This document shows, piece by piece, positions 1,074 through 29,971 of a DNA stretch of 64,000 nt. Origin of the DNA: an uncultured Lachnospiraceae bacterium (GTDB lineage: Bacteria > Bacillota > Clostridia > Lachnospirales > Lachnospiraceae); assembly GCA_947625775.1 (NCBI GenBank), contig CANQPM010000014.1, forward strand, positions 1 to 64,000, in the 5' to 3' direction. Position 1 is the stretch's first letter. Every line of letters begins with the position of its first letter. The position numbers and the translations under genes were made by a program. A model generated the notes under the pieces. That model had not been told where the DNA came from and searched no databases. It was given only the letters and a program-made list of their open reading frames with translations.

Positions 1074-1191
1074 GTTATGCAATTAAGCTTTTAAGTATAG
1101 CGCCTTCTATTAAAATTCTGCTTAAGAGAATCTTTAAAATCAAATTTTTAAAATCAAATTAAAAATTTAAATTAGTGAGGAGATGATTGAA

Positions 1192-4100
1192 ATGAAGTAT
1201 AAACACAAGCGAATATTTAAATCGCTAGTCAGTTTGCTGCTAATTTTGACATTTATATTAGCACCATTTGAAGGTGTATTCGCAGAAGAAGATGATTATG
1301 ATGAAGCACATGTAAACGGAAACACTGAATCAGAAAAGATTACTTCAGGTTATGATCCAAATGCTATTAAACCGTTCGTGTGCCAGGCTGTTATTATTGG
1401 AATGTTAGAGATAGACAATACGACCCAGGAGTATCGTAGCCAGATAGAAGCACATAATGCGGCATTGCCAGAGGGAAGTGATGATTATTGGAGTGAGTAC
1501 CGTGTGTCTATAACGGACCAGTATCTTTATTCGCATCCACAGGAGATGTCGGAGATGGCTAATGTAGATAGACTTGCTTTAATACGCTTAATTAAATCGG
1601 GTGAGACTAAAAATAATAAACGGTATAAAGCTTTAGCTTTAAACGGGAAGAGTGGCTCTCAGGGTAAGTATCAAGGAACATATTACGCAGTGCGTAAGAG
1701 CGGCTCTCAACATTCTTCATATAATGTAGATGTCGTATTCAGTAAGGTTAAGAATAATGAGGCGTATTACGAAGCTTTTAAGTCAGGCAGTTTAGACGTT
1801 GATCTTGTTTTGGCTTTAGCGGATCAAAACTCAAGCGCTTTGGAAGGTGGAGTTAATGATTTTGTTGCATTATGGGAACAGTCAGGAGATGTTGATGTAT
1901 GCTTGAATAAGTTTGTTTCTCAGGAAGCAGATTCTTATGGTAATGCATTAAGGTATCTTGATTTCTTATTGGTAATAAATAAGTTATGTGGTAATAAATA
2001 CCGTGATTCGATTAAAAAGTATCTCAAGTATTTAAATCGTGATGAATCAGATAAGTTTATAACAGTATGCGCTGCAGCGGCAGTTATGTGTAAGATAAAT
2101 ACAGTCCCAGGTGATTACTATGCGGCAACATTACCAAATTATTATGCAGCTTTAACAGGTGAGAGTTTTGAGTGTTATCAGACGTTTTCTTTTAGTCGTA
2201 GTTTTCCTTCACCAGTGGAGCCAGGTACAGGAGGGTATGATGCAGATCCAGATGGTTTTATAGGTTCATTGCGGCAGCAATATACTGATGTAAGTAGTAG
2301 AGTTGCTACCCAGTGTTTGTCTGGTAATGTATCAACTATTTTCTGGTGGGATGATATGGGACAAGGTTATAACTATGAGATGGGATGGATGCTGCAGCCG
2401 ACAGACATAAATGGTAATGCAACAGGAAATACAGGATATACGTTCTTAGGTGTTCATGGTAAGGAGACACCACCAGTACCCGATGATGACGATGACGATG
2501 ATCCAGACCCCGATCCCACGCCAGACGACGGTGGTGACTTAGCCAACGATGCATATGCCAAGTTCTACATCAGTGCTTCATCAGACGAGTATGAGGTAAT
2601 GCCAGGTGATACGGTGGCGGCTAGGATAGACATCAACTTAAAACAGTCAGCACAGATGCTTTATGACCTGAAATTGAAGTGGACAGCCAACGGCATTAAA
2701 TACCGTGACTGGGATCCGTCGTTCGGTATCGCTCTTGTAAGAGAAGGCGGTGGCAGTGATATTGCCGTAGACACTATGACATCAAATCCGTCAGGCTCGG
2801 GAGGACTCGACCCTACAATGCAGACAAACACGTTAGGCGGCTTTACTGTAATGGACGTAAGCTGGGAAGAAGCGCTTGAGATATTTAACGGGCGTAAGAA
2901 TGTTACAGTCTATGATGAAAACGTCACAATCAACAGTGACAAGGAGCAGCGTTATGTCGCTGTGGTTAATCTTTATTGGTTTTATGACAATGCAAATGTT
3001 GAGTCAGCCACAGCAGCCACAATGAATTTCTACTCATCAGGTAAGGAGATAGTTACCGAGTACCAGGGTGCAGACGAAGTGCCATGGATAGTCAGGAAAG
3101 ATGATCCAAATAAAGGGCATTTCTATTCGCAGCTGCGTGACGGCAACTATGTGGAGATGAAGGACAACTCTCCAGGCAACGGCGAGACTTACGAAGCGAT
3201 GGCAGGCGTGCCCACTACCGAAAACCTTTACGCTGGATTTGGCGCCAATGAGTTTATGATAAATATGGAGTGTGAGCTGAAATCAGACACTGGCAAGCAG
3301 AGGAAATATACTTATACCTATCAGGTTAATAATTGTATTGGGAATAATACCAAGTGTGTGTACTCTTGTCCTGGGGATCATCAAGATACAGTTTATGCTA
3401 ATGGCTGTGGCAAGGTGTTAGTAAAGGGAGACCCTGTAAAGGGTACACCTGATGTGACTTGCAATTCAGGAACTGCAGGCGAAAAGGTAAGTTGTGCAAA
3501 TGGTCCAGTCAAATCAAAGTCAACTTGTGGGTGTGGGGCTAAATCAAGTGAAACGACATATAGTCCTAAAGAGAAGTGCGATTGGTGTGAAGGAAGTGGC
3601 TGTGTAGTAGTGGAACATGCGAACCAAGCGCATCCGCATGTCCACAATTTTGTTACTGTAGTTACACAGAACATAAACGGCTATTCTTATCTTGACATAG
3701 TCGGCACGGATTTATGGCAGGTGACAAAGCTTCTGGTAAACGGGAACAAGGAGCTTTTATCTAATCCTGTACAGTCTAAAGATCCGAATACGGGCTACAG
3801 GGCATTTGTAAGCCAGGGTGGTTATTCAAGTGGCAATGGGCGTATAGTGTTTGACTGGTCTTTACCAGGTGACTCTAATACTTCTCGTTTCTGGGGTGAC
3901 ACGGAGGGACAAGGGGTAGATGAAAGTAATAATGTGTTATTCACAGATGGCGAAAAGAGAGCAAGGCACGCTTTTTCAGATGTGTTTGGACATTCTGTTA
4001 CAGCAAATGTTATAAGTGATTACATTACGCTTGCTACGACAGAAGGATATCAGACAATTACTTATAATGACCAGATAAGTGGAACTGTTCCTATTTTAAG

Positions 4101-7100
4101 CGATAACAGTCAAGATAGTTGGGAGACTAAGGAATGTGATTGTGATAGTGTAATAGGAGGCTCAACACAGACTTCGTATGCTGCACGAAGTGGTAGTCCT
4201 ATACCGTTTAGTGAGACAAGGACTTGGTTAGATTTGTGGAATCACGAAAAGGAAGCTTCTCTGTCAAATTCTACGATGGGCAGCTATTCAGCCCAGAAGT
4301 GGGAATCGACTCAGATTACAAGGAGCGGGTATAACGGCAAGTATGACAGTCCCACAACTAAGTGGAATAACACGAATGTATTCAACAGTAGTGGCAAAGA
4401 TCCAGCGGAACAGTGGGAAACTGGCAGCACGACCTTCACGAGTGAGAATGTAGGCAGACAACCCAATGCACAGTTTGACCCGCACGGTGGATTTGTGGCA
4501 GATGGCTTCTCTAATACAAGAATGCTCATCAGTGGTTTTAACATAATCGATTCAACGCAGAAGACGGCAGGTGAGTCGGGCGTATATTCAGCAGATGACG
4601 GTGTGGAGCCTGTGAGCAACGGTGAGTGGAATACGGGTAATGCGTACCTCTTAGCTAAGCGTGTCATACATAATGGCAGTCTGTCAAAGGGAGTACGTTA
4701 CGATCAGAGGTCTGATAAATGGGCTGCAGGTGTCGGTCTGGGAGAATCATCAGGTGATTATTATGTTGAAGTCGGGTACACGCAGGGCAAGGAGAAGATA
4801 AACAACGTGGTAATACACAATCCTGTGGCAGTACAGAATGCACAGATACATGACTCGATAGACCTTAAAGACGACAGGACAGCATCATCACTTAGCTCGG
4901 GAGGCGATCCTGTATCGGGAACAACTGTTGCAAAACAGTGGGTGCTGGATTGTGATGAGCCTATAGTCCCGCATGGCACGGATTGTTATGTTTACACACA
5001 GTCCTCTATGAAGCATTATGGCGGTCTTAACTCTCATAAGCATACGGAAGCCTGCTATACTGATTTCAGCCAGAGTCTGGTTTCCACGGGTGAGGAGCAG
5101 ACCTTTAACATAGGTAAGGGGCTTTATTACTTTGAGATAGCCGGAGCATCAGGAAAAGACGGAGATGAGGAAGGAGAGTATGGAGATGTCGTGCGTGGTA
5201 CGTTTACTGTTGACGGTGATTGTACGGTAACGGCGACGATAGGCTCTGAATCAGATTCGTATCCAGATGGCGGAGGTTCCGAAACAGGGACATATACAAA
5301 TGAAGCTGGAGCGACATTAAGCTACGCGGCACAAGCAGCAGGTGGCGGAAGTTCTAAGATGATAATCAGCGGAACGGATGTACGAATAGAAGTAAAAGGC
5401 GGCAGGGGAGGCAGGTTTAATGTGCCTTACACAGACGCTTATGCAAGTTCATTCTCTAATAACGGTGGCGGAGAAACAAAGGCAAATGGGATTATTGTTG
5501 TTGATAGGGCTGATAAGTCTAACAATGGCAATGGTTACTTAAAGCTTTACAGAGCTAAGCAGAGTGGTACTTCCTCTATCGATTACGAATGTTATTCTGA
5601 GGGCTGGGATGTAATACAGGAGAATGGTGCTGGGGTTGCTGTTTTATGGCAGTGCAGGACATGTAAGGCTACGACAACTTCTATGCCTGACAGTAATGTA
5701 AAGCACCATAAGGCAACAAAGACAATTACAAACTATATTTCAGATCCAGTGCTTTCGTGCAGTAATATCCCGAATAAGCATGTATGTGTTACGTGTGAGG
5801 AAGGCGCTATAGTCAAGACGCTTGTATGTACAAACCCGCACCATTATGATCCAAACACTGAGGAAGGTCCTGCAGCGGATGGAAGCAATAAGTTTAAGTT
5901 CCATTATGACCCAGGCGTAGGTGACTGTTATAAGCAGGTTGAGGTTGGCTCAAGCGGAGTGACAGACGGCACAGAGGCAGGCGCAGGCGGAAGTGGTGCA
6001 GGCGGAAGCGCTGATGCTGTAGTCAATCTTGACAGTGCATTTACCATTACATATCCGAGGACAGGTGATTTCTCAGAAGCTCCTAGCATGTGGGGGATAC
6101 TTGACTGTACTCAGGTAAGAGGCAAGGGTTATACAGACGGAATGGATACTGAACAGTGGACAAGGGATATTTATGTAATATTCCCGGTTGATGTGGAAGA
6201 TGAGAATGATGATTACTGGACGGCAGGAACGCCTATTCCGTTGTACCACATACACAATCCAGTATCGCAGGGTGATACATATACATTCTATTGTATCCTT
6301 GAGAACAGGGAAATGGCAAGTGGGTCGGTACAGTTCACGTCGATAGCCACGAATGCTGATGAGGTCAGATATTATACGGATAACCAGGCAAATACAAACA
6401 AGGAGCGTGACAGGGTAGCATATGCAGCAAGGCATACAGCCATACAAAAGAGGAAAGTTGATATTGTTGGATTTATAGGTGCATTGACAATCAATGATAC
6501 GCAGGATTTAAGATTTGCAGAGTTATTTAAGCAGGTTGATCCGAGTGCAGACTGGCTGATACCGGGCATTGTGCATGGTGTGTTCAGCAATGTACCTAAT
6601 AAGGTTGTTACTGATCCTGAAAATGTTCTGCACAAATCGAATACCGCTCCTTATTATGGTGATGTATTCGGAAATGGAGAACTTCAGTCGTCAGGAACGC
6701 TGTACAGTAGTAATGGTGGTAAGCACTATGAGAATCCGACTTTACCGCTAACTCCAGCTCTTAATCCAGTTGTGGCATTACAGACTGAGCCTATGCGTGT
6801 CGGGTATAATCTGCTTATGGATGTCCAGACGGTCGGAAATTATTATGGCATCAACACTGATGGCGATGGTAATTACAAAGATAACAATATGGACTACAAG
6901 ATGCAGATAACACCGAGGTATTGGCTGCTTGACTTAAAGACAAATAAGTACACACCGCTTGATGTGTATGCAAGCTTTAATGGCAGTTACGGTCTTGTCA
7001 ACAGCTTTGACGGCAATAAGTCTGTAGAAAATTATTACCTATATTTAGACTGGCTTAATGAATCTGCAAGGCGTAATTATACAGGAAACGAAAGAAGCTC

Positions 7101-7707
7101 TACGTTGTTAGGTCAGCAGTACTTCTCAGGGCTTGAAGACAGTGGAGAAGTTGATGAGGATGGCGATCCTATTTATATTCCGTCTACTGTCATAAAAGCG
7201 AGGGCGCCGCAGACAGACCAGGATGTTATTGGCACGGCACAGAGGCTGTTCCTTAACGACCTTAACAGGACTTTCGTAGGTGGCTCATATACTATGGGCG
7301 AAGGGCATAATCAGGCAGATGCATGGTATGAGCAGGAATACGCTATACAGGCACAGAGATGGCATTTTACTATGGGATTACCTTCAAGCTCTGTGTTTGT
7401 TGAGAGAGGCAAGAACTGTAACCAGACTAACATAGATGCTATCATGAAGCAGGAGGATACGGTTGTAGTATGTACTCTTAATATACTTGTAGCAGGAACT
7501 GTGTGGACACTTGAATATGATGGAACGGCAATTAATACATCAGCTGGCGGAGGTTTCAAAATATTTGGGGATGAAAGTGAGTTCAGCAGGGTTTATACAC
7601 CGCCAACAGAACCAGGTACGAGTACACCGACAAAAGACCCAGTAGTTGCGGTTTATACTCCGAATAAGTCAGCGGCTGATGATTTGGTAACATCAGGTTC
7701 GCATTAA
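1192..7707 (+). CDS. Giant secreted mosaic protein (2,171 aa)
   Basis: The start at 1192 is preferred over 1183 because the GAGGAG site (1177-1182) touches the latter. Residues 1-35 are a clear signal peptide (basic KYKHKR, hydrophobic core, VFA-EE cleavage site). A 400-residue N-terminal part is followed near residue 430 by an Asp/Pro-rich linker with a run of seven Asp, then a beta-rich segment beginning DEYEVMPGDTVAARI that looks like an adhesin or cohesin-type sandwich. Residues about 715-815 hold many CxxC and CxC pairs, suggesting a metal-binding or disulfide-rich module; more Cys/His pairs occur near 1480-1560. Residues about 1300-1460 are Gly-rich. The C-terminus (DDLVTSGSH) has no LPxTG or membrane anchor. 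It is probably released or held by partner proteins. A role in cell contact during element transfer is possible but only inference. No whole-protein family was recognised. Confidence 0.75.
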   Translation: MKYKHKRIFKSLVSLLLILTFILAPFEGVFAEEDDYDEAHVNGNTESEKITSGYDPNAIKPFVCQAVIIGMLEIDNTTQEYRSQIEAHNAALPEGSDDYWSEYRVSITDQYLYSHPQEMSEMANVDRLALIRLIKSGETKNNKRYKALALNGKSGSQGKYQGTYYAVRKSGSQHSSYNVDVVFSKVKNNEAYYEAFKSGSLDVDLVLALADQNSSALEGGVNDFVALWEQSGDVDVCLNKFVSQEADSYGNALRYLDFLLVINKLCGNKYRDSIKKYLKYLNRDESDKFITVCAAAAVMCKINTVPGDYYAATLPNYYAALTGESFECYQTFSFSRSFPSPVEPGTGGYDADPDGFIGSLRQQYTDVSSRVATQCLSGNVSTIFWWDDMGQGYNYEMGWMLQPTDINGNATGNTGYTFLGVHGKETPPVPDDDDDDDPDPDPTPDDGGDLANDAYAKFYISASSDEYEVMPGDTVAARIDINLKQSAQMLYDLKLKWTANGIKYRDWDPSFGIALVREGGGSDIAVDTMTSNPSGSGGLDPTMQTNTLGGFTVMDVSWEEALEIFNGRKNVTVYDENVTINSDKEQRYVAVVNLYWFYDNANVESATAATMNFYSSGKEIVTEYQGADEVPWIVRKDDPNKGHFYSQLRDGNYVEMKDNSPGNGETYEAMAGVPTTENLYAGFGANEFMINMECELKSDTGKQRKYTYTYQVNNCIGNNTKCVYSCPGDHQDTVYANGCGKVLVKGDPVKGTPDVTCNSGTAGEKVSCANGPVKSKSTCGCGAKSSETTYSPKEKCDWCEGSGCVVVEHANQAHPHVHNFVTVVTQNINGYSYLDIVGTDLWQVTKLLVNGNKELLSNPVQSKDPNTGYRAFVSQGGYSSGNGRIVFDWSLPGDSNTSRFWGDTEGQGVDESNNVLFTDGEKRARHAFSDVFGHSVTANVISDYITLATTEGYQTITYNDQISGTVPILSDNSQDSWETKECDCDSVIGGSTQTSYAARSGSPIPFSETRTWLDLWNHEKEASLSNSTMGSYSAQKWESTQITRSGYNGKYDSPTTKWNNTNVFNSSGKDPAEQWETGSTTFTSENVGRQPNAQFDPHGGFVADGFSNTRMLISGFNIIDSTQKTAGESGVYSADDGVEPVSNGEWNTGNAYLLAKRVIHNGSLSKGVRYDQRSDKWAAGVGLGESSGDYYVEVGYTQGKEKINNVVIHNPVAVQNAQIHDSIDLKDDRTASSLSSGGDPVSGTTVAKQWVLDCDEPIVPHGTDCYVYTQSSMKHYGGLNSHKHTEACYTDFSQSLVSTGEEQTFNIGKGLYYFEIAGASGKDGDEEGEYGDVVRGTFTVDGDCTVTATIGSESDSYPDGGGSETGTYTNEAGATLSYAAQAAGGGSSKMIISGTDVRIEVKGGRGGRFNVPYTDAYASSFSNNGGGETKANGIIVVDRADKSNNGNGYLKLYRAKQSGTSSIDYECYSEGWDVIQENGAGVAVLWQCRTCKATTTSMPDSNVKHHKATKTITNYISDPVLSCSNIPNKHVCVTCEEGAIVKTLVCTNPHHYDPNTEEGPAADGSNKFKFHYDPGVGDCYKQVEVGSSGVTDGTEAGAGGSGAGGSADAVVNLDSAFTITYPRTGDFSEAPSMWGILDCTQVRGKGYTDGMDTEQWTRDIYVIFPVDVEDENDDYWTAGTPIPLYHIHNPVSQGDTYTFYCILENREMASGSVQFTSIATNADEVRYYTDNQANTNKERDRVAYAARHTAIQKRKVDIVGFIGALTINDTQDLRFAELFKQVDPSADWLIPGIVHGVFSNVPNKVVTDPENVLHKSNTAPYYGDVFGNGELQSSGTLYSSNGGKHYENPTLPLTPALNPVVALQTEPMRVGYNLLMDVQTVGNYYGINTDGDGNYKDNNMDYKMQITPRYWLLDLKTNKYTPLDVYASFNGSYGLVNSFDGNKSVENYYLYLDWLNESARRNYTGNERSSTLLGQQYFSGLEDSGEVDEDGDPIYIPSTVIKARAPQTDQDVIGTAQRLFLNDLNRTFVGGSYTMGEGHNQADAWYEQEYAIQAQRWHFTMGLPSSSVFVERGKNCNQTNIDAIMKQEDTVVVCTLNILVAGTVWTLEYDGTAINTSAGGGFKIFGDESEFSRVYTPPTEPGTSTPTKDPVVAVYTPNKSAADDLVTSGSH

Positions 7708-13890: not shown

Positions 13891-14100
13891 ATGGAAAATA
13901 AAAGTGTAGGGTATGTACCAATTTGGGAGAAAGCATTATTAACAATTAATGAGGCTGCGGCATATTCAAATATAGGAATACACAAAATAACTGATTTGGT
14001 TAAAAGACCTAGTTGCAAGTTTGTTTTATATGTTGGCAATAGGAGGTTAATTAAGCGTAAAGAGTTTGAAGAATTTATCAGCAAATCAGTAGAACTATGA
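13891..14100 (+). CDS. xis: Excisionase, Tn916 Xis-like
   Basis: A 69-residue basic protein ending in a winged-helix pattern like Tn916 Xis: VPIWEKALLTINEAAAYSNIGIHKITDLV (recognition helix) and GNRRLIKRKEFEEFI (wing and last helix). Such proteins bend DNA at the element ends and steer the integrase toward excision. The start follows AGAAAGGAG. The integrase gene starts 21 bases after the stop, the typical xis-int pair. Confidence 0.85.
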   Translation: MENKSVGYVPIWEKALLTINEAAAYSNIGIHKITDLVKRPSCKFVLYVGNRRLIKRKEFEEFISKSVEL

Positions 14101-14121: not shown

Positions 14122-15267
14122 ATGGGTAAGGATTTACGAGGCAAGGAATTGGGAGTTGGTATCAGTCAGAGGTCTGATAAGTATTATGTTGGGCGATTTG
14201 TGGACAAGAATGGACATAGACAGCAGAAGTTATTTAAAAAGCTTCAAGAATGTAGACAGTGGTTAGCTGATGCACAATATCAAGATGAACATAGTAATAT
14301 AGATTTACCATCAGAGATGACGGTAAAGGCATGGTTTGATTATTGGCTTAATATGAAGAAAAGAATTAGGCGTGTCACTACGATAGGGTGTTACATTAGC
14401 ACATATAATAGTCATATTGGACCGAGTATTGGAGATAAGTTGTTAGTAGATGTAAAGCCAATGCATTGTCAGGAAATAGTGACTAACCTTATAAGTAAGG
14501 GTTACTGTACATCTACTGTACAGTCAGTTGCTATACGTTTATATGATATTTTTGAGTATGCATACAAAAATAGTATAATTCTCAAAAATCCATGTGATGG
14601 TTTATATGAGTACTGTACTAATGGAAAAAGTTCATCTGTAAGGGAAGCCTTGACAAGAGAACAGCAAAAAGTATTTTTAGAGGAAATACGTGGTAGAAGC
14701 TATGAGTATCAGTGGCGACTTATATTACAAACGGGTATTAGGGTAGGTGAACTTTGCGGTTTAAAATGGAGTGATATTGATTTTGATAAGCGTATTATGT
14801 GTATACGAAGGACATTATCAAAAGTTGCATCAAGTAAAAGTTTAGTTATAGGTGAGCCTAAAACAAAGGCTGGCATACGGAACATACCGTTAACTGAAGA
14901 GGCAATTAATATTTTGAAATTGCAAAAAAGGAAAAGAGATGGTATTATTGTATTAGAGAGTAAGTGGGAAGATTATATATTCTTAAGTCGTCGAGGAAGT
15001 CCCATATTGACACATACATATGATGAGAGCTTGCAAGTTATTGGTAAGAAGATAGGTGTAAAAGGTCTGTCAATGCACATATTGCGGCATACATTTGCGA
15101 CGAGGTGTATAGAGGGTGGAATGATGCCTAAGACCCTGCAAGTAATTTTAGGACATTCTAGCTACAGTTTGACAATGGATAGGTACGTACATGTGACAGA
15201 TGATGTAAGGCTTGAAGAAATGAATAAAATCGAGAGTATTTTGAATATAGCACAAAATGGTACGTAA
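14122..15267 (+). CDS. int: Tyrosine integrase, Tn916 family (381 aa)
   Basis: It catalyses integration and excision of the element through a 3'-phosphotyrosine intermediate. An N-terminal arm-binding domain (about 1-60) is followed by a SAM-like core-binding domain (MTVKAWFDYWLNMKKRIR onward) and the catalytic domain: first Arg in TGIRVGELCGLKW (near 206), HILRHTFATR (near 319), GHSS (near 343) and the nucleophile in MDRYVHV (near 354). Length is standard. The site GGAAGGAG precedes the start. ATGGTAC occurs twice at its end (15257-15275), a possible arm-type binding repeat. Confidence 0.92.
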   Translation: MGKDLRGKELGVGISQRSDKYYVGRFVDKNGHRQQKLFKKLQECRQWLADAQYQDEHSNIDLPSEMTVKAWFDYWLNMKKRIRRVTTIGCYISTYNSHIGPSIGDKLLVDVKPMHCQEIVTNLISKGYCTSTVQSVAIRLYDIFEYAYKNSIILKNPCDGLYEYCTNGKSSSVREALTREQQKVFLEEIRGRSYEYQWRLILQTGIRVGELCGLKWSDIDFDKRIMCIRRTLSKVASSKSLVIGEPKTKAGIRNIPLTEEAINILKLQKRKRDGIIVLESKWEDYIFLSRRGSPILTHTYDESLQVIGKKIGVKGLSMHILRHTFATRCIEGGMMPKTLQVILGHSSYSLTMDRYVHVTDDVRLEEMNKIESILNIAQNGT

Positions 15268-15388
15268 GATGGTACATAGCGGTAAGTTAATAGTTTCTAA
15301 GCGTACATATTTATGAAAAATTTGTCGTATTGCGATAAATTATAGAATATATACTAATAAATAATATAATTAATGTCTATAATTAAAA

Positions 15389-15416
15389 ATGCAACATTTT
15401 GGATAAAATGTTGCAT
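15389..15416 (+). repeat. Left recombination site (IR-L)
   Basis: Arms ATGCAACATTT (15389-15399) and AAATGTTGCAT (15406-15416) are perfect inverted copies around the asymmetric hexamer TGGATA. With two further bases on the right (TT), 30 bp are the exact reverse complement of 16344-16373. The 11-6-11 layout equals that of Xer/dif-type crossover sites, though the arm sequence is not dif. Confidence 0.85.
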
Positions 15417-15445
15417 TTGCTATTTTTCATAAAACAAATTATTAT
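15417..15445 (+). promoter_or_regulatory. Possible promoter of the recombinase gene
   Basis: TTGCTA (15417-15422), 17 bases, TATTAT (15440-15445). It is inside the segment, so it would stay with the recombinase in either orientation. Confidence 0.4.
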
Positions 15446-15497
15446 ATTAAAGGAAAGGAAATCTAACGAAAGGAAACGTTTAGAGAAGGGTATAACT

Positions 15498-16088
15498 ATG
15501 AGCACAATGTCGCCTATAAAGGACAAAAAAGAGCTGGAGGCTATGAAAAAATATTTTTTGGGAAAAAACGAGATAAGAAACTATGCGCTGTTCTGCGTAG
15601 GGATTAATACCGCCCTGCGCATAGGCGATATTTTAAGGCTGCGATGGAAAGATGTGTATGATTTTGGCAGCCGCTCATTTAAAAAACATCTGCAGCTCAA
15701 AGAGCAGAAGACGAAGAAAAGGGCTGAAATACTCTTAAATAAGGGGGTAATAAATGCGTTAAAAAAGCTGCTTGCATATTTTAACAAAAACCATATAACG
15801 ATAGACGAAAACACATATATATTCACAGGCAGGAAAAACATGGAAAAACCGCTGAGCCGCTCTCAGGCATACCGCATTATAAGCAGCGCCGCCAAAGCGC
15901 TTAAAATAACTGGAAATATCGGCTGCCACTCACTTCGTAAAACCTTCGGATATTTTGCGGCGCGCAGCGGAATTTCTTCCGTATTGCTTATGCATATCTA
16001 CAACCATTCCTCATTCCCAATAACAATGCGTTATCTGGGAATAGAACAGGATGAGCGCGATGAGGTGTTTATGCGGATAGCGCTTTAG
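15498..16088 (+). CDS. Small tyrosine recombinase, probable DNA invertase (196 aa)
   Basis: The start at 15498 has GAAGGG 8 bases upstream; earlier in-frame starts run into the left repeat. The protein is essentially a bare catalytic domain, the size of FimB/FimE and clostridial RecV. Catalytic residues are all present: Arg41 (NTALRIGD), His144 and Arg147 (GCHSLRKTF), His170 (YNHSSF) and the nucleophile Tyr179 (MRYLGI). It is enclosed by the two 28-bp sites and unrelated in size and base use to the Tn916-type integrase next door; codon use is like the chromosome. Likely substrate: the flanking sites. A housekeeping XerC/D role is unlikely because it lacks the N-terminal core-binding domain. 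Confidence 0.85.
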   Translation: MSTMSPIKDKKELEAMKKYFLGKNEIRNYALFCVGINTALRIGDILRLRWKDVYDFGSRSFKKHLQLKEQKTKKRAEILLNKGVINALKKLLAYFNKNHITIDENTYIFTGRKNMEKPLSRSQAYRIISSAAKALKITGNIGCHSLRKTFGYFAARSGISSVLLMHIYNHSSFPITMRYLGIEQDERDEVFMRIAL

Positions 16089-16287
16089 CTACTGTTTTTG
16101 CCTATATAACATCATTTTGACAGTTTGCTGCAACTTTTCATATGTTGTATGAGTATATCTGGCTGCCTTTTTGAAATTTTTAACATTCTTACGGTACAAC
16201 TATGCCTTTTTCAAGCAATCTCAGTATGTTCTTTATGTTCTCAAGAATTTTTTTCCATAAAAATAAAATTTTTTTTCAGATAAGGGG

Positions 16288-16314
16288 TAAAGTATTTTTA
16301 ACAATAACCGATAT
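16288..16314 (+). promoter_or_regulatory. Sigma-D (sigma-28) flagellar promoter
   Basis: TAAA (16288-16291), 16 bases, CCGATAT (16308-16314), which equals the TAAA-N15-GCCGATAT consensus with A in place of the first G. It points at csrA-flagellin, starts transcription near 16321, and lies 32 bases inside the right recombination site, so inversion would detach it from the genes. Confidence 0.8.
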
Positions 16315-16345
16315 ATAGAGTGTAAGAACAAAACGGCGTTAAAAA

Positions 16346-16373
16346 ATGCAACATTTTATCCAAAATGTTGCAT
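16346..16373 (-). repeat. Right recombination site (IR-R)
   Basis: Same arms as IR-L but with the central hexamer reversed (TATCCA), so the site is inverted relative to 15389-15416. It lies in the transcribed leader of csrA, 79 bases before its start. No T run follows on the plus strand, arguing against a terminator for csrA-flagellin. Confidence 0.85.
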
Positions 16374-16452
16374 AGCGCAGAACACAAGCCAGAAAAGGCA
16401 GAGCCTTATCAATATGCATTAAAGCTGCAGACAAAAACAAGGAGGTTTTTAT

Positions 16453-16674
16453 ATGCTGATGCTTACAGTACCCAAGGAAGAATACTTGATGATAGGCGAT
16501 AATATCAAAATCACCTTTCTTGGTGGTAATGACAGGCAGCTTAGGGTGATGATAGACGCTCCAAAGGATGTAAATGTCGCAAGAGGCAGAGCCATCAAAA
16601 AGCGTGCAATAAAAAGAGCGGCTAAAAAAGCAGCAGAGGCAGCAGCAGAAAAGACGGAAATACAGGAAATATAA
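16453..16674 (+). CDS. csrA: CsrA-family RNA-binding regulator (73 aa), divergent
   Basis: CsrA dimers bind GGA motifs in mRNA leaders; in Bacillus subtilis CsrA blocks flagellin translation until FliW removes it. The core EYLMIGDNIKITFLG and MIDAPKDVNVAR matches the family, and the two key RNA contacts Leu4 and Arg44 are kept. Differences: the usual T-R-(R/K)-x-G-E after residue 5 reads T-V-P-K-E-E, and the C-terminus is a long basic/Ala helix (KKRAIKRAAKKAAEAAAEK). GGAGG at 16441-16445 sets the start, and ACAAGGAGG there also fits a CsrA site, so it may limit its own translation. No fliW gene is adjacent. Confidence 0.82.
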   Translation: MLMLTVPKEEYLMIGDNIKITFLGGNDRQLRVMIDAPKDVNVARGRAIKKRAIKRAAKKAAEAAAEKTEIQEI

Positions 16675-16896
16675 AGGTTAATAACCGAGGCTGTCCGCCC
16701 AAAGCAGGCGCGCCGATACGTGGACAGTTTCGGATATTATAAATCAAAACTAAATAAGGAACAAAAACAGACGGTGGGAAACGGAATTTCCCACGGCAAA
16801 GCCAAAGCGCGGATTTGTGGATGTAAGATTTACAAAAGTGAAATTTATGGACGCAAAGCCAAATAAGCGCGGCAGGCAAAACAAGGAGGTAAGATT
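16675..16896 (+). promoter_or_regulatory. Flagellin leader with candidate CsrA sites
   Basis: A stem GTGGGAAA (16774-16781)/TTTCCCAC (16787-16794) shows the loop CGGAA, the typical CsrA presentation of GGA. Further GGA motifs are GGATGT (16819-16824, matching the consensus end), 16849-16851, and ACAAGGAGGT (16881-16890) that includes the ribosome binding site of flagellin. One site in a loop and one on the ribosome binding site resembles the B. subtilis hag leader. The stretch GCAAAGCCAAA is duplicated at 16796-16806 and 16853-16863. No promoter was seen, so flagellin is probably read from the sigma-D promoter with csrA. Confidence 0.55.
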
Positions 16897-18393
16897 ATGG
16901 TAGTACAGCACAATTTACAGGCAATGAACTCTAACCGTATGTTAGGCATCACACAGGGAACATTATCAAAGTCAACAGAGAAGCTTTCTTCTGGTTATAA
17001 GATTAACAGAGCGGCTGATAACGCAGCAGGTCTTGCTATATCTGAGAAGATGAGAAAGCAGATCAGAGGACTTACACAGGCATCTGCAAACGCAGAGGAC
17101 GGCATTTCATCTGTACAGACAGCAGAGGGTGCTCTTACGGAAGTACACGATATGCTTCAGAGAATGAACGAGCTGGCAGTTCAGGCAGCAAACGGCACGA
17201 ACTCAGAAGATGACCGTGCATACATTCAGGACGAGATTGACCAGCTTACACAGGAAATCGACCGTGTAGCAGAGACAACCAAATTCAATGAGACATATCT
17301 TTTGAAGGGTGACAATTCAGTTGAGAAGACATACAGCTATGCTTACACAATGGGAACAAGCACATCAGCAAAGGCTGAGTTCTCAGGTACAGCAGACGCA
17401 AACGGTGTTACTGTATCAGTAAGCTTCTCTACGATGGGTACAGCGACATCTCCGTCAGTAGCGGATCAGAATGCTTTAGCAAAAGCACTCAAGAACCAAG
17501 GTCTTACAATTACGACATCAACTGTCAAAGTGACAGGTGCTGATGGCACTACTACAGATCAGGTTAAGGTTTCTATCCAGCTTAACGGCAGCGATGCAAA
17601 GAGCAACTTCTCAATAGTTGGTTCTGGTACAGTGGCAGATGGTGTAGCATCATTTACTGTTATTAACTCACAGGGTAAGGTTGTCGGCAACATTGATGTA
17701 AACTTGGAGGAGGTTAAGGCAGGACTTAGCAGCAATATCACGGCTACTACTGTGTCAGCAGCAGGAAGCGAGCTTGAGGCATATGCATACTATGATAAGG
17801 ACGGCAACAAGATAGCGGCTAATGGTTTGAAAGATTACTTCACCTCTATGGATAAAATTCTAGACGATGGCTCGACAACTATTTCAACATCAGGCAGGGC
17901 TGATTCTAAGAAGGTATATGACGCTCTTGGCAATGAGATAGGACTTGACGCGAGCAAGGTTAAGGCTGCAAAGGATCAGATTGGTGCATTGAACCTTAAG
18001 TTCCATGTAGGCGCTGACGGCACAGACAACAACAAGATTTCTATTAACATTCAGGCGCTCACGGCTAAGGGACTTGGCATCAATGGCTTAAAGGTCAATG
18101 GCGAGAACGGCGATAAGGCTACAGATGCTATCTCTGTAATCAGCGAGGCAATCAAGATTGTATCTACACAGCGTTCAGCACTCGGTGCAGTTCAGAACCG
18201 CTTAGAGCATACGATCAACAACCTGGATAACATTGTTGAGAATACGACATCAGCAGAGTCAGCAATCCGCGATACAGATATGGCTGATGAGATGGTTAAA
18301 TACTCTAACAACAATATCCTCTCACAGGCAGGTCAGTCAATGCTTGCACAGGCTAACCAGTCTAACCAGGGCGTACTCTCATTGCTTGGCTAA
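16897..18393 (+). CDS. hag: Flagellin (498 aa)
   Basis: It is the filament subunit exported by the flagellar type III apparatus. The conserved N-terminal D0/D1 region ([20 protein letters not shown], then [28 protein letters not shown]) and C-terminal region ([43 protein letters not shown]) are intact. The centre (about residues 145-390) is the variable surface part, rich in Thr/Ser/Gly. Cys is absent, as is usual. The start follows AAGGAGGT. The gene is followed by a terminator and by an unrelated gene on the other strand, so csrA-flagellin is a small stand-alone unit away from other flagellar genes. Confidence 0.95.
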
Positions 18394-18430
18394 TCAACAT
18401 TCTGATACAGATTATTGGTACAATCATAAT

Positions 18431-18462
18431 AAGGGGACTGTTCATAAGAGCAGTCCCCCTTA
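18431..18462 (+). terminator. Terminator after flagellin
   Basis: AAGGGGACTG and CAGTCCCCCTT form a GC-rich stem with a 10-base loop. It lies between convergent genes and may serve both. Confidence 0.8.
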
Positions 18463-18467
18463 ATTTG

Positions 18468-20159
18468 TTAAAATATTAGGACTTCCTTACCTTTAAACGC
18501 AACCCCATACTTGCGGATATTTTCCGCAGGGATACCCCTCGCAAGCAGCGTCTGCTCATATTTTTTATCTTCTATCTGCTGCAGCGCTGATTTTACAGTA
18601 TCATCAAGCGAGGCATCGCGCTTTGGATTATATATCTTAAACTCAATAATCACGGCGATATCAGCTGGATTTTTCGGCTCCAGCATAATATCATACCGCC
18701 CAAAGCCGCTCTCACGGTTGGAAGTGAGAACATATTTTTCACGCAGCTCCACCAGCAGTCCGAGCACAAATCCGTGGTAAAAGCGTTCAGGTTCAGAAAA
18801 ATTGTCCCTTGGCACATCAAAAAAGCTGAAAACATCACGCGTCACTCTGTTCATATACTCATTCATAGCTTCAATGTCTCCAGCAAACATTGCCTTTATA
18901 AAGCGGCTGTAAGAAGACGCTGCAGGAGCAAACCAGTTTTTAACCATATTTTCAAACATACAGCGCACTTCAAAGTTTGTGAGTGCCAGCTCATAGCGCG
19001 GCTGCTTCCATTCCTCAAAGCCGATTTCCTCAAAGCCCTCTACATTCAATATTTTCAGATACCCGCTTGTAAGCAGAAAACTCCAAATACTGTCCCTTGT
19101 ACTGTCAAGCTGGTTATATACAATCTGCTCATCAATCTCACTCACAACAGTCTGTCCCAGCAGCAGCCCCTTAAACTCCTCTTTAATTTCAGCCTCAGCG
19201 CTCTGTATAAGCTTTGAGACAAGGCTGTTTGAACTGGTGTTTGCCCAGTAGGTGTTAAATTTCTGGGTATCCAGATAATTTATTATCGACCAAGGATTAT
19301 ATATGTCGTGCGTATTCCCAAAGGTAAAACCGTCATACCAGAATTTGACATTTTCTTTTTTATCAAGCCCATATTCATCCATTGCCGCAAATACTTCGCC
19401 TTCCGTAAACCCAAATGCGTCGGCGTATTCATTTGAGGTAGTGGTTACAACCTTTAGATTATTCAAATCCGAAAATATAGACTCCTTACTGACTCTTGTA
19501 ATGCCAGTCATAATACCGCGCTCAAGCCAGGGATTTGTTTTAAACGTCGAATTGAACATACTCCTGGTAAAAGCGACAAGCTCATTCCAAAACCCGCCGA
19601 CATATGCCTCCTGCATAGGCGTATCGTACTCGTCAAGCAGGATTATGACATTTTTGCCATAATATTTATGAAGAAAGTCGCACAATTGATAAAGCGCCAG
19701 AGTAGCAACCCCCTCGCTCATATCAATTGAAACCTTGTCGAAAAATTTTTTATCATTTTCATTGAGAGCATCACTTTCCCGCAAAAAATAATACTGCGAA
19801 TAAAGATTAGCCAATAGCAAACAGATTTTTTCGCGAGTCCGCTCATAATTCGGCTCCTTGACATTGGCAAAGCTCAGGCTGATGACGGGATAAGTTCCCT
19901 GCAGCTTTCGGTATTTCTGCTCGTTCCATATGGAAAGCCCTTCAAACAAATCACCCCGCCCCGCATATTTTACGGAAAAAAATTTTTCAAGCATATTTAT
20001 GGTAAGAGTTTTGCCAAAACGCCTCGGGCGCGTGATAAGCGTGACACTGTCGCAGCCCTCCCACCATTCTTTTATAAATGATGTTTTATCAATATAGAAG
20101 CAATTGCCTTTGACAATCGTTTCAAAATCCTGAATACCGATTCCGACAGTCCTAGCCAT
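18468..20159 (-). CDS. AAA-ATPase-like / PD-(D/E)XK nuclease-like protein (563 aa)
   Basis: The start at 20159 (MARTVGIGIQDFE) has AGGAGGTATCTG directly upstream. The N-terminal part matches AAA-ATPase_like proteins: FYIDKTSFI, Walker A RPRRFGKT (near residue 44), Walker B VIILLDEYDTP (near 175). The C-terminal part has the PD-(D/E)XK core GRYDIMLEP then AVIIEFKIY (near 490-515), with Asp, Glu and Lys in place. This two-domain family is often present in many copies in gut Firmicutes and Bacteroidetes; the biological role is not established, though defence or mobile-element functions have been suggested. Confidence 0.85.
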   Translation of the reverse strand: MARTVGIGIQDFETIVKGNCFYIDKTSFIKEWWEGCDSVTLITRPRRFGKTLTINMLEKFFSVKYAGRGDLFEGLSIWNEQKYRKLQGTYPVISLSFANVKEPNYERTREKICLLLANLYSQYYFLRESDALNENDKKFFDKVSIDMSEGVATLALYQLCDFLHKYYGKNVIILLDEYDTPMQEAYVGGFWNELVAFTRSMFNSTFKTNPWLERGIMTGITRVSKESIFSDLNNLKVVTTTSNEYADAFGFTEGEVFAAMDEYGLDKKENVKFWYDGFTFGNTHDIYNPWSIINYLDTQKFNTYWANTSSNSLVSKLIQSAEAEIKEEFKGLLLGQTVVSEIDEQIVYNQLDSTRDSIWSFLLTSGYLKILNVEGFEEIGFEEWKQPRYELALTNFEVRCMFENMVKNWFAPAASSYSRFIKAMFAGDIEAMNEYMNRVTRDVFSFFDVPRDNFSEPERFYHGFVLGLLVELREKYVLTSNRESGFGRYDIMLEPKNPADIAVIIEFKIYNPKRDASLDDTVKSALQQIEDKKYEQTLLARGIPAENIRKYGVAFKGKEVLIF

Positions 20160-20269
20160 ACAGATACCTCCTGAATATCGTTTATACACTTAGTTTAACA
20201 CACTTCGCCGTTTATTGTCATTATTATTCGCGTAAAATCAGCCAGCCGCACACTTTTTTTCTCAAAAGC

Positions 20270-20298
20270 TTGTCAAACATATGGCATAATGCTATAGT
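20270..20298 (+). promoter_or_regulatory. Sigma-A-type promoter for the cysteine hydrolase gene
   Basis: TTGTCA (20270-20275), 17 bases, TATAGT (20293-20298), about 100 bases before the gene. Confidence 0.6.
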
Positions 20299-20405
20299 AA
20301 ATTCAAATAAACCAAATTAATTGCGCATATGCTGCTGGCGCAGGCTGTTAATCTGTTTATTATTTATGAATTTGCGCAGGGAGCAGTGCAGAAATGAGGA
20401 AAATC

Positions 20406-20927
20406 ATGAAAAACATACTCATAGCAGTAGATATGCAGAAAGACTTCATCGACGGGGCGCTCGGCACTAAGGAGGCGGAGGCGATAGTTGACAATGTAGC
20501 GCGGACTGTGAAAAGCTTTGACGGAGAAGTAATATTCACGCGCGACACTCACTATGACAACTATATGGACACTCAGGAGGGGAAAAATCTTCCCGTGCCG
20601 CATTGCATAAAGGGCACTGACGGCTGGCAGATAGACAAAAAGCTTGCGGCGATAATAGATGCTGACAGCAGCATAAAGATTTTTGACAAGCCGACTTTCG
20701 GTTCGGTGGAGCTTGCAGAATATTTGAAGCGCAGCGGCGGCATCGAAAAGGTTACGCTTATAGGACTTTGCACTGACATATGTGTCATTTCCAATGCGCT
20801 TTTGATAAAGGCGTATCTCCCCGAAACAGAGGTGTCCGTAATCGAAAGCTGCTGCGCGGGAGTTACGCCTGAAAGCCACAAAAATGCGCTCGAAGCAATG
20901 AAAATGTGCCAGATAAAAATTGTATAA
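20406..20927 (+). CDS. Cysteine hydrolase, isochorismatase/nicotinamidase superfamily (173 aa)
   Basis: The fold is recognised from ILIAVDMQKDFIDGALGT (catalytic Asp), the Lys in DKPTFGSVEL and the nucleophile Cys in LIGLCTDICVISNAL. This triad hydrolyses amides such as nicotinamide or vinyl ethers such as isochorismate. The short form with metal-ligand-like TRDTHYDNY suggests nicotinamidase-type activity (NAD salvage), but substrate cannot be fixed. The start at 20406 gives the usual MKNILIAVDMQ beginning with GAGGA 5 bases upstream; 20394 is an alternative. Confidence 0.8.
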   Translation: MKNILIAVDMQKDFIDGALGTKEAEAIVDNVARTVKSFDGEVIFTRDTHYDNYMDTQEGKNLPVPHCIKGTDGWQIDKKLAAIIDADSSIKIFDKPTFGSVELAEYLKRSGGIEKVTLIGLCTDICVISNALLIKAYLPETEVSVIESCCAGVTPESHKNALEAMKMCQIKIV

Positions 20928-21050
20928 AAATGTATAGCGGTTTTGGGCATATCAGAAGTCTTCGCCCTTGCTTTTGCCAAAGGCATAACATACCATTCCA
21001 AAATGCATTGCTGCATTGCGTACTGAGAAACATAAAAAATGATACATGTG

Positions 21051-24246: not shown

Positions 24247-24409
24247 CGCCTGTATGGCATATGTAAACCGTTGGAATTTAAGCAGGCATGAAAAAACACG
24301 GCTGTATGCATATCACTCTGCCTCGGGCTGCTATTAATCTGTATATCGCTCTGCATGCACGTTAAAACAACATTACAATAAAAATTTATTGTTTTTCGAT
24401 AAAAATATA

Positions 24410-24438
24410 TTGCATTTCAAACAAAACTGTGCTATTCT
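24410..24438 (+). promoter_or_regulatory. Sigma-A-type promoter for the membrane protein
   Basis: TTGCAT (24410-24415), 17 bases, TATTCT (24433-24438), 115 bases before the gene. Confidence 0.5.
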
Positions 24439-24553
24439 TTATTCAGCTTAAAAATAATTGGCATAATATAATTGGCATAAAAATAATTGCAAAATAACTT
24501 TAGTTAGATTCAATTAACTAAAATTAAATTGAAAAAGAATGGAGATAAAGCTA

Positions 24554-26146
24554 ATGGACAATTTAAAAACAGTAGAACTGCAAAATTCACAGCCGCCACA
24601 GCCTTCATACACAGCGCAGAACCCCGAAGAAGCCGCAAAAGCGGCAAAACCTGACAAGCCCGACAAAGCCGCCCGCTTCAAGTCTTTTGCGCTCCCGACC
24701 GCGCTGTATGCCTTATTTTACACCTTCTGCCTGTACCACAATGCATCAGGAATAACCTACCCTTTTTTCGCAGGCGGAACCCTCTGGTTTTTCTCGCGCT
24801 GTATCAGAGAGTCAAAGAGCAGCTCCGCCGCCGCCAATGCCACATTTAACAAATACTTCCTTGCCGCGTCAATCCTTGTGGCAGGCGCGCTGAACTGCTG
24901 CACCGATTCAGCCGTGCTGCTGTTTTTCAACAAAGCGCTGATGTACACCCTGCTCATAATCAGTCTTTTAGAACTGTCGCACGACACACGCGGCTGGAGC
25001 ATAACAGCCAACATAAGGGCAGTATTTGCCGTAATTTTCGGCGCAATAGGAAAATGCTTTGACGCGGTAAGCGACGCATGCGCGGCAATATCGCTCTCCC
25101 ATATCAAGGATAGACCGCGCAGCATGGAGCGCAGGCGCATAATTATTTCCATTATAATAGGAATCGCCATAAGCATTCCAATATCATCTTTTGTCCTGAT
25201 GCTTTTGGGCGATGCCGACGCCATTTTCTGGAAACTCTTGTCGGATACCGTCAGCTGGGCATTTGAGCATAGCTTTGAAATAAACAAGACAGCGGTAAAG
25301 CTTATAGCCAGAATAGTGATAACCTTTGCCATTTCATACGGCATACTTTCATTCTGCACCGACAGCGGGCGCATAAAGGCAATAGATGAAAAGGCGGCAG
25401 GACAAAAGCCGCGCTTTGACGAGTATATCGCAATCACCTTTACAGCCATAGTGGCAGTGATATATTTGGTTTTCTCCTTTACGCAGATATTCGGGCTCTT
25501 TCTTGGCAGGATGACGCTGCCAGAAGGCTTCACCTATTCAAGCTATGCGCGGAAAGGCTTTTTTGACCTCGTGATTTTATGCGTGTTCAACATAGTGCTT
25601 GTGCTGTGCGCTGCGGCATATTTTAATACAAATAAAATACTTCGGTCAATCCTCACCGTTATATGCCTGTGTACCTATATAATGGCGGCATCAAGCGCTT
25701 TCAGAATGTATATGTATATAAAGGAATATAATCTCACCTTCCTGCGCCTTTTGGTGCTTTGGGGGCTTTTGATGACAGCTATAGTTATGGCGGAAGTGAT
25801 AACGTATGTTTACAAGGATAATCTCAGGCTTTTCAAATATATTACAATGACGCTTACCATAGGCTGGCTTGCTTTTTCCGCGCTGCATCCTGATTACTGG
25901 ATTATGCGTTACAATGTTTCAAAAGCGGATTACACGCTGTTTTACCATTACAGCGGTATGTCGCTTGACGCTTTTTCCGCCGCGGAAAATATTGATAATC
26001 TCAATGAAATGAGAATAATGCGGCGCGTTGACGAATACGCGGATACTAAAAAAGGCATAGATACAGTCAGAAAATTTAATTTTTCAAAAGAATATGCTTT
26101 GCATAAGGCAAAAAGCGCAGGCTACAAGCCTAATAAGGACAATTAA
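24554..26146 (+). CDS. DUF4173-like polytopic membrane protein (530 aa)
   Basis: The start at 24554 has GGAG at 24541 with normal spacing; the ATG at 24539 overlaps that site. A 45-residue soluble start rich in Pro, Ala and Lys is followed by about 10-12 hydrophobic segments from FALPTALYALFYTFCLYHNASG onward. The pattern GRMTLPEGFTYSSYARKGFFDL near residue 330 is typical of DUF4173 (DUF4153-related) proteins of Firmicutes. The C-terminal 80 residues are soluble (HPDYWIMRYNVSKADY onward). The function of the family is not known. Confidence 0.75.
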   Translation: MDNLKTVELQNSQPPQPSYTAQNPEEAAKAAKPDKPDKAARFKSFALPTALYALFYTFCLYHNASGITYPFFAGGTLWFFSRCIRESKSSSAAANATFNKYFLAASILVAGALNCCTDSAVLLFFNKALMYTLLIISLLELSHDTRGWSITANIRAVFAVIFGAIGKCFDAVSDACAAISLSHIKDRPRSMERRRIIISIIIGIAISIPISSFVLMLLGDADAIFWKLLSDTVSWAFEHSFEINKTAVKLIARIVITFAISYGILSFCTDSGRIKAIDEKAAGQKPRFDEYIAITFTAIVAVIYLVFSFTQIFGLFLGRMTLPEGFTYSSYARKGFFDLVILCVFNIVLVLCAAAYFNTNKILRSILTVICLCTYIMAASSAFRMYMYIKEYNLTFLRLLVLWGLLMTAIVMAEVITYVYKDNLRLFKYITMTLTIGWLAFSALHPDYWIMRYNVSKADYTLFYHYSGMSLDAFSAAENIDNLNEMRIMRRVDEYADTKKGIDTVRKFNFSKEYALHKAKSAGYKPNKDN

Positions 26147-29778: not shown

Positions 29779-29971
29779 GACATTGATAGCGTTGAAACGT
29801 GAGGTTGCCGTCTGAAAATGGCGGGTTTTCCGCGGAGCGAATGTCAAGTTATGAAACTGGCGACAAGTCACTGTACAAGGTATTAAAGCTGATGTGAAGT
29901 CTGCGGATTGCGCTGATTTATGGCGCAGGGCGTATGACACACACGGGAGAGTGTACAGTCACCGCTTGTCG
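29779..29971 (+). ncRNA. Structured mRNA leader of rpsJ operon
   Basis: GACATT (29779-29784) can pair with AATGTC (29840-29845). A long-range stem joins CGACAAG (29861-29867) to CTTGTCG (29965-29971) and ACTGTACA (29870-29877) to TGTACAGT (29952-29959), 15 bp in total around an inner hairpin (TGCGC/GCGCA). Ribosomal operons are often controlled by such leaders; in Escherichia coli the S10 leader is bound by L4. Whether this RNA does the same is inference. Confidence 0.55.

Follow-up and report, generated by a model that had tools for sequence, protein, structure and literature searches.

A putative self-inverting tyrosine-recombinase cassette beside csrA–flagellin units of Lachnospiraceae

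The recombinase genes of the Escherichia coli fim system lie outside of their own invertible element, and the invertible segment of the Hin system is approximately 1 kb in length. The Salmonella recombinase Hin is described as residing inside an invertible segment that also carries a flagellin promoter (PMC5903667); downstream, in fljBA, flagellin is accompanied by the regulator FljA, which represses the other flagellin (PMC9368917, PMC5903667), and Hin is a serine recombinase that acts with Fis and an enhancer (PMC9368917). In Clostridioides difficile, Rho is reported to act in the flagellar switch (PMC7446863), and RecV to serve several switches (PMC5903667). A group of invertons, 32 of whose 33 members are from Clostridia, has been linked to a group of tyrosine-type recombinases (PMC11892184); that paper's main text contains no word beginning with 'flagell'. 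Further literature comprises PMC11868660, PMC2784873, PMC5386303 and PMC8523840. Among the matches listed from the open-access literature (preprints fall outside this scope), there was no description of flagellin inversion in Lachnospiraceae.

The window, i.e., the whole 64,000-nucleotide stretch of Lachnospiraceae DNA that we analysed, contains at 15389–16373 a 985-bp segment that lies between two exact inverted 28-bp sites. A first-pass annotation had proposed exact reverse-complement ends of 30 bp (15389–15418 and 16344–16373; the 28-bp site plus two inner bases), a 196-residue recombinase with its full catalytic set, and a sigma-D promoter some 32 bases from the right end that points to csrA and flagellin; all three are present. 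The 196-aa tyrosine recombinase (15498–16088, plus strand; its frame is open from a TTG at 15399) matches PF00589 with an E value of 7e-24, and R, K, H-x-x-R, H and Y are invariant in 33/33 aligned proteins (the window's recombinase and 32 relatives). The sigma-D promoter (TAAA-N16-CCGATAT; 16288–16314, plus strand) is approximately 32 nt from the right site and, in this ON orientation, is aimed at a diverged, 73-aa csrA paralogue (16453–16674, plus strand; PF02599), the first gene of the switched unit, and at a 498-aa flagellin (16897–18393, plus strand; PF00669 and PF00700), the putative switched surface protein. Two sigma-D matches occur in the window, as compared with 0.17 expected; 3 of 100 shuffles also gave two.

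This layout resembles that of Hin and fljBA in that a recombinase and a promoter are enclosed by inverted sites, with flagellin and a regulator downstream. The idea that the arrangement has no precedent must therefore be given up, since Hin is also described as lying inside an invertible flagellin-promoter segment (PMC5903667). The differences are that the cassette has a tyrosine rather than a serine recombinase, that csrA takes the place of fljA, that one genome holds seven cassettes with mostly different cores, and that the cassette's sites may act as terminator stems. No serine-recombinase domain of the Hin type was found, PF00589 being the only Pfam match at E ≤1e-3. FimB and FimE of E. 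coli type 1 fimbriae are likewise small tyrosine recombinases of about 200 aa, but our protein scores far below the cut-offs of the NCBIfam DNA-invertase models PRK09870 (49.4 bits; cut-off 221) and PRK09871 (38.2 bits; cut-off 222), which we take to be FimB and FimE. The cassette shares with the RecV switches of C. difficile a tyrosine recombinase and, probably, flagellar phase variation; the 195-bp invertible region at C. difficile cwpV holds no promoter, whereas the cassette described here does.

Each crossover site (left, 15389–15416, core GGAT; right, 16346–16373, an inverted copy with core ATCC) consists of two palindromic 12-bp arms, ATGCAACATTTT and AAAATGTTGCAT, that flank a 4-bp core. 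The first-pass annotation had the same site sequence but divided it into 11-bp arms around a hexamer, with the boundary shifted by one base; 12-bp arms around a GGAT/ATCC core are the better description. A chance origin of the sites is excluded: at ≤3 mismatches, the genome contains 11 instances of the site pattern and none of its reversed control. Both cores were identical in 33/33 cassettes that we tabulated from the genus, whereas 20,000 shuffles gave 1.86 such pairs on average and 9 at most; the observed count is somewhat favoured because the site pair chosen was the one with the lowest number of mismatches near each recombinase. There are 22 different cores among these 33 cassettes, and none is self-complementary. 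The notion that shared cores are actively avoided within a genome was not supported, sharing being at about chance level: AAAT is common to two cassettes of the window's genome, and AGAT to two in genome G020. As a separate observation, 45 of the 50 mismatches between paired sites fall in positions 1–11, almost wholly in the outer arms (up to 5 differing bases), with 0 in positions 12–19 and 5 in positions 20–28; the inner arms are nearly identical.

In L064, the positional orthologue of the window locus in genome G020, the cassette is turned between collinear flanks. Both loci have the core GGAT; identity to the window is 86% for the csrA–flagellin flank and 84% for the cassette, these two matches being on opposite strands. 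Specifically, the right flank of L064 matches window positions 16344–18462, 18475–20989 and 24367–25881, all on the opposite strand; the cassette (15389–16373) matches on the same strand; and the short left flank (15367–15418) is again on the opposite strand, its match extending 22 nt beyond the site in the orientation of the flanks. That the cassette alone is turned argues that this segment inverts. A duplicate unit on contig C8 of the window's own genome (L060) is also turned: its cassette DNA is 94% identical, its csrA protein 100% and its recombinase 99%, and the left-flank match runs 32 nt beyond the site. A third locus with a GGAT core (L073, on G017:C20) is turned too, with its promoter OFF and its right site lost; the sequence in which it ends recurs at the end of L071, and is probably an insertion element. 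These data support both the invertible promoter and the ON call of the first-pass annotation, which had also suggested looking among relatives for the inverted segment: L064 is that form. Comparison shows inversion at the window locus, and likewise the existence of a cassette family, core identity and the placement of the promoter; that the cassette still switches today is what we infer from these sequences. The first base of contig G020:C5 is exactly the last one that both orientations would share, which is suggestive of a mixed-orientation population. It is the only one of eight contig edges examined that fits, and we have set aside contig ends as evidence for mixed orientations.

We consider it probable (roughly 0.87) that this is a self-contained cassette, inverted by its own recombinase, that switches a csrA–flagellin unit, with several such units per genome. 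We envisage that expression of the small recombinase is probably driven by a sigma-A-like promoter of its own, which starts immediately inward of the left site (TTGCTA-N17-TATTAT; 15417–15445, plus strand) and is a consensus match only, of a kind that occurs eight times in the scanned stretch as compared with 6.2 expected in shuffles. The predicted catalysis would recombine the two inverted 28-bp sites and so flip the segment. In the ON state, transcription from the internal sigma-D promoter would cross the right site and enter csrA and flagellin; in the OFF state the promoter would face the far flank, where the palindromic site and a T tract probably end the transcript. The 4-bp cores would lie in the region of strand exchange and so have to be identical, and each cassette would therefore be largely kept to itself.

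The window's cassette is not the single switch that it was at first taken to be, as there are seven in its genome and many more in the genus and family. The seven comprise one ON (that of the window), five OFF and one that is cut by a contig end; they correspond to seven close recombinase copies (69–100% identity), and all eleven occurrences of the site pattern lie at those copies. Nine of the genome's 11 Flagellin_N matches (Pfam) were compared. Six lie beside visible cassettes: the window's is ON, and the other five, of which C8 carries one and C9 four, are OFF. These six flagellins are 79–96% identical in their N-terminal part and 10–79% in the middle. The flagellin on C16 is truncated where its contig begins, and it may go with the cassette that is cut at the start of C22; that on C5 is a distant relative. 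The flagellin on C19 has its own sigma-D promoter without a cassette, so OFF need not mean non-motile. Of the seven CsrA genes detected, the highest-scoring one (86.7 bits) lies approximately 0.4 kb upstream of the flagellin on C19; the six weaker ones (61–63 bits) are all in switched units. With cassettes beside six, and probably seven, csrA–flagellin units, the cell could vary the set of additional flagellins that accompany the one whose promoter is fixed, and relatives of the cassette beside several flagellin genes suggest a multi-gene system for changing the flagella. In a tree of 33 recombinases (15 of its 30 inner branches are open), L061 groups with L068, and one L062 cassette with one of L065; that some cassettes group across species, and not within a genome, indicates that several copies predate these species.

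Crossover sites (≤3 mismatches) were present in 19/36 genomes of the genus, including the window's, and in 0/24 from other families of the order. Recombinases were detected at E ≤1e-30 in 23/38 genus genomes, some with a distant kind only, and at E ≤1e-35 in 30/397 genomes and 28/334 genera of the family. From 17 genus genomes we tabulated 33 complete cassettes of 808–1278 bp, with the site register set by hand for L062 (third cassette), L121 and L103. The tabulation leaves out L073; L063, cut by a contig start; L138, which repeats a stretch of L062; L109, L110, L120, L126 and L139, for which a site pair was not found; sites lacking a full recombinase match, either at contig ends (L122, L124, L125, L127, L128 and L140) or otherwise (L074, L129 and L141); and L130–L137, eight recombinases at 38–40% identity for which neither a nearby csrA or flagellin nor a site pair was found. 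A strict sigma-D match lies inside 32/33 of these cassettes, 19–34 nt from the site and in the direction of the recombinase; csrA is adjacent in 33/33, and flagellin is visible in 31/33, L069 and L104 being cut by contig ends. Beside two cassettes, L070 (G027:C32) and L115 (G006:C29), there are three consecutive flagellin genes, so one switch may control several flagellins.

By layout, one genus cassette is ON (the window's), 31 are OFF as judged by the promoter, and L117, which has no strict sigma-D match, is OFF as judged by recombinase direction only. We annotated 30 loci in other genera; csrA is within reach at 18 of them, and 14 of these have a site pair that could be scored; with two mismatches allowed in the promoter motif, 14/14 (12 genomes) are OFF, and in L184 and L196 promoter and recombinase point in opposite directions. 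For the other four with csrA in reach (L177, L181, L195 and L197), a site pair was not found. The ON layout is therefore seen in only one of 47 scored cassettes, so that a strongly OFF-biased switch, or locking in many species, is possible. Bearing in mind this imbalance (32/33 in the genus and 14/14 elsewhere), and the degenerate outer arms of some sites, one might suppose that the switch is decayed or one-way, most species now staying OFF and the window being a rare locked ON. We think this unlikely: disuse should have eroded both the catalytic residues and the matching cores, yet each is retained in 33/33, and a single genome holds two closely similar units that face opposite ways.

The recombinase, the inverted ends and the several copies per genome would also fit a small transposable element that is bounded by terminal inverted repeats and frequently inserts next to flagellin genes. 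Of the 12 loci in other genera that have no csrA, three have a site pair: L178 (cut by a contig end), L179 and L182 (4 mismatches). L179 (5627–6388; G223) is a clean cassette whose inverted ends are exact; it lies between a sugar transferase and an epimerase, on one side, and a set of glycosyltransferases. L182 (5733–6623; G265) is similar, with weaker ends, and lies among sugar-transferase, glycosyltransferase and epimerase genes in a genome without a flagellin match. L189 has a glycosyltransferase neighbour, and its site pair was not found. A clean cassette at L179 means that the module has moved between kinds of locus in evolution, as a transposon would. On the other hand, csrA adjoins every one of the tabulated genus cassettes, the cassette is turned, not absent, at the orthologous locus, and cores match within pairs and vary between cassettes, all of which makes a transposon very improbable. 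With the self-inverting cassette retained as the preferred reading, L179 and L182 argue against a purely flagellar role for the recombinase family; on sequence grounds we see the cassette as a surface-structure module of which the flagellin form would be one branch. That the recombinase instead serves a neighbouring integrative element, the flagellin switch being incidental, is suggested by an integrase gene (14122–15267) that ends approximately 120 bp left of the left site, but we reject it, since that element has its own full-length integrase, the genome's other cassettes have no such integrase nearby among the matches listed, and left-flank homology to other cassettes stops at 15357–15367, as for an adjacent insertion.

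Another observation concerns the fate of the OFF transcript. Reading outward past the site, at least 5 of the first 9 bases are T in 29/33 far flanks and in 0/33 csrA flanks; reading inward past the sites, the figures are 23/33 and 22/33. T-richness is thus not special to the far flank; it is only the csrA flank that lacks it. In the window this far flank is TTTTAATTATAG when read leftward (15377–15388, minus strand), and with the A+T-rich site stem it would form a terminator in the OFF state. When OFF, L064 and L060 give transcripts that form a hairpin followed by U, with folding energies of −20.0 and −16.5 kcal/mol, respectively; the window's ON transcript forms the hairpin (−18.7) without a U run. 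A terminator scan of the window gave a minus-strand match at 15418–15387, where transcription would leave for the far flank; at the right site the plus strand gave no match. Given a T-rich far flank and a csrA flank that lacks such a tract, the crossover palindrome may double as the terminator stem in the OFF orientation.

A hairpin with a AAAGGAAA loop (15465–15480, plus strand) precedes the recombinase gene, and it resembles a CsrA-binding hairpin. A script that sought GGA hairpins, with no background control, found a comparable hairpin with AAGGA in its loop at the equivalent position in 16/18 recombinase leaders of the close clade; five second-clade leaders have a different AAGGA hairpin, and so a CsrA-type hairpin is not a universal cassette feature. 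In eight rows cut and chosen by hand, and compared with 500 shuffles, 77.5% of cells were paired (reached by 0/500), three pairs were changed on both sides (11/500), as were four cells (3/500), there were five further pair types (232/500), and the covariation score was 0.364 (10/500). Control by CsrA of the recombinase, or of other flagellins in the manner of FljA, is offered as a proposal only.

Flagellins of gut Lachnospiraceae are prominent immune antigens, and avoidance of immunity or of phage would be a plausible benefit of switching. On/off switching of single flagellins would help to explain commensal flagellin genes that have no visible promoter; three such genes are named in a 2013 survey of Eubacterium and Roseburia (PMC3720852). 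The cassettes would give the classic Salmonella switch a counterpart of different construction, whose sites are predictable from sequence, and would supply a naturally occurring collection of recombinase–site pairs in which the arms are common and the core is varied. More tentative, and in our estimation doubtful as a whole, is a combinatorial flagellin-variation system in Lachnospiraceae with up to seven units per genome and mostly private cassettes. In it the crossover site would also be the OFF terminator, and the co-switched CsrA would act back on the leader of the recombinase and, like FljA in Salmonella, repress the remaining flagellins. Such a system would have evolved separately from Hin, out of a module that in other genera serves surface polysaccharides as well.

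An excisionase-like ORF (13891–14100, identified by eye) and the 381-aa integrase end next to the cassette; from the point at which left-flank homology stops, this integrative element seems to have been inserted 20–30 bp from the left site. A 2174-aa ORF at 1183–7707, left of the integrase, may belong to this element too. In Rfam, the window has a single match that reaches the gathering score, an S10-Clostridia ribosomal protein leader at 29784–29866 (RF03136, 89 bits).
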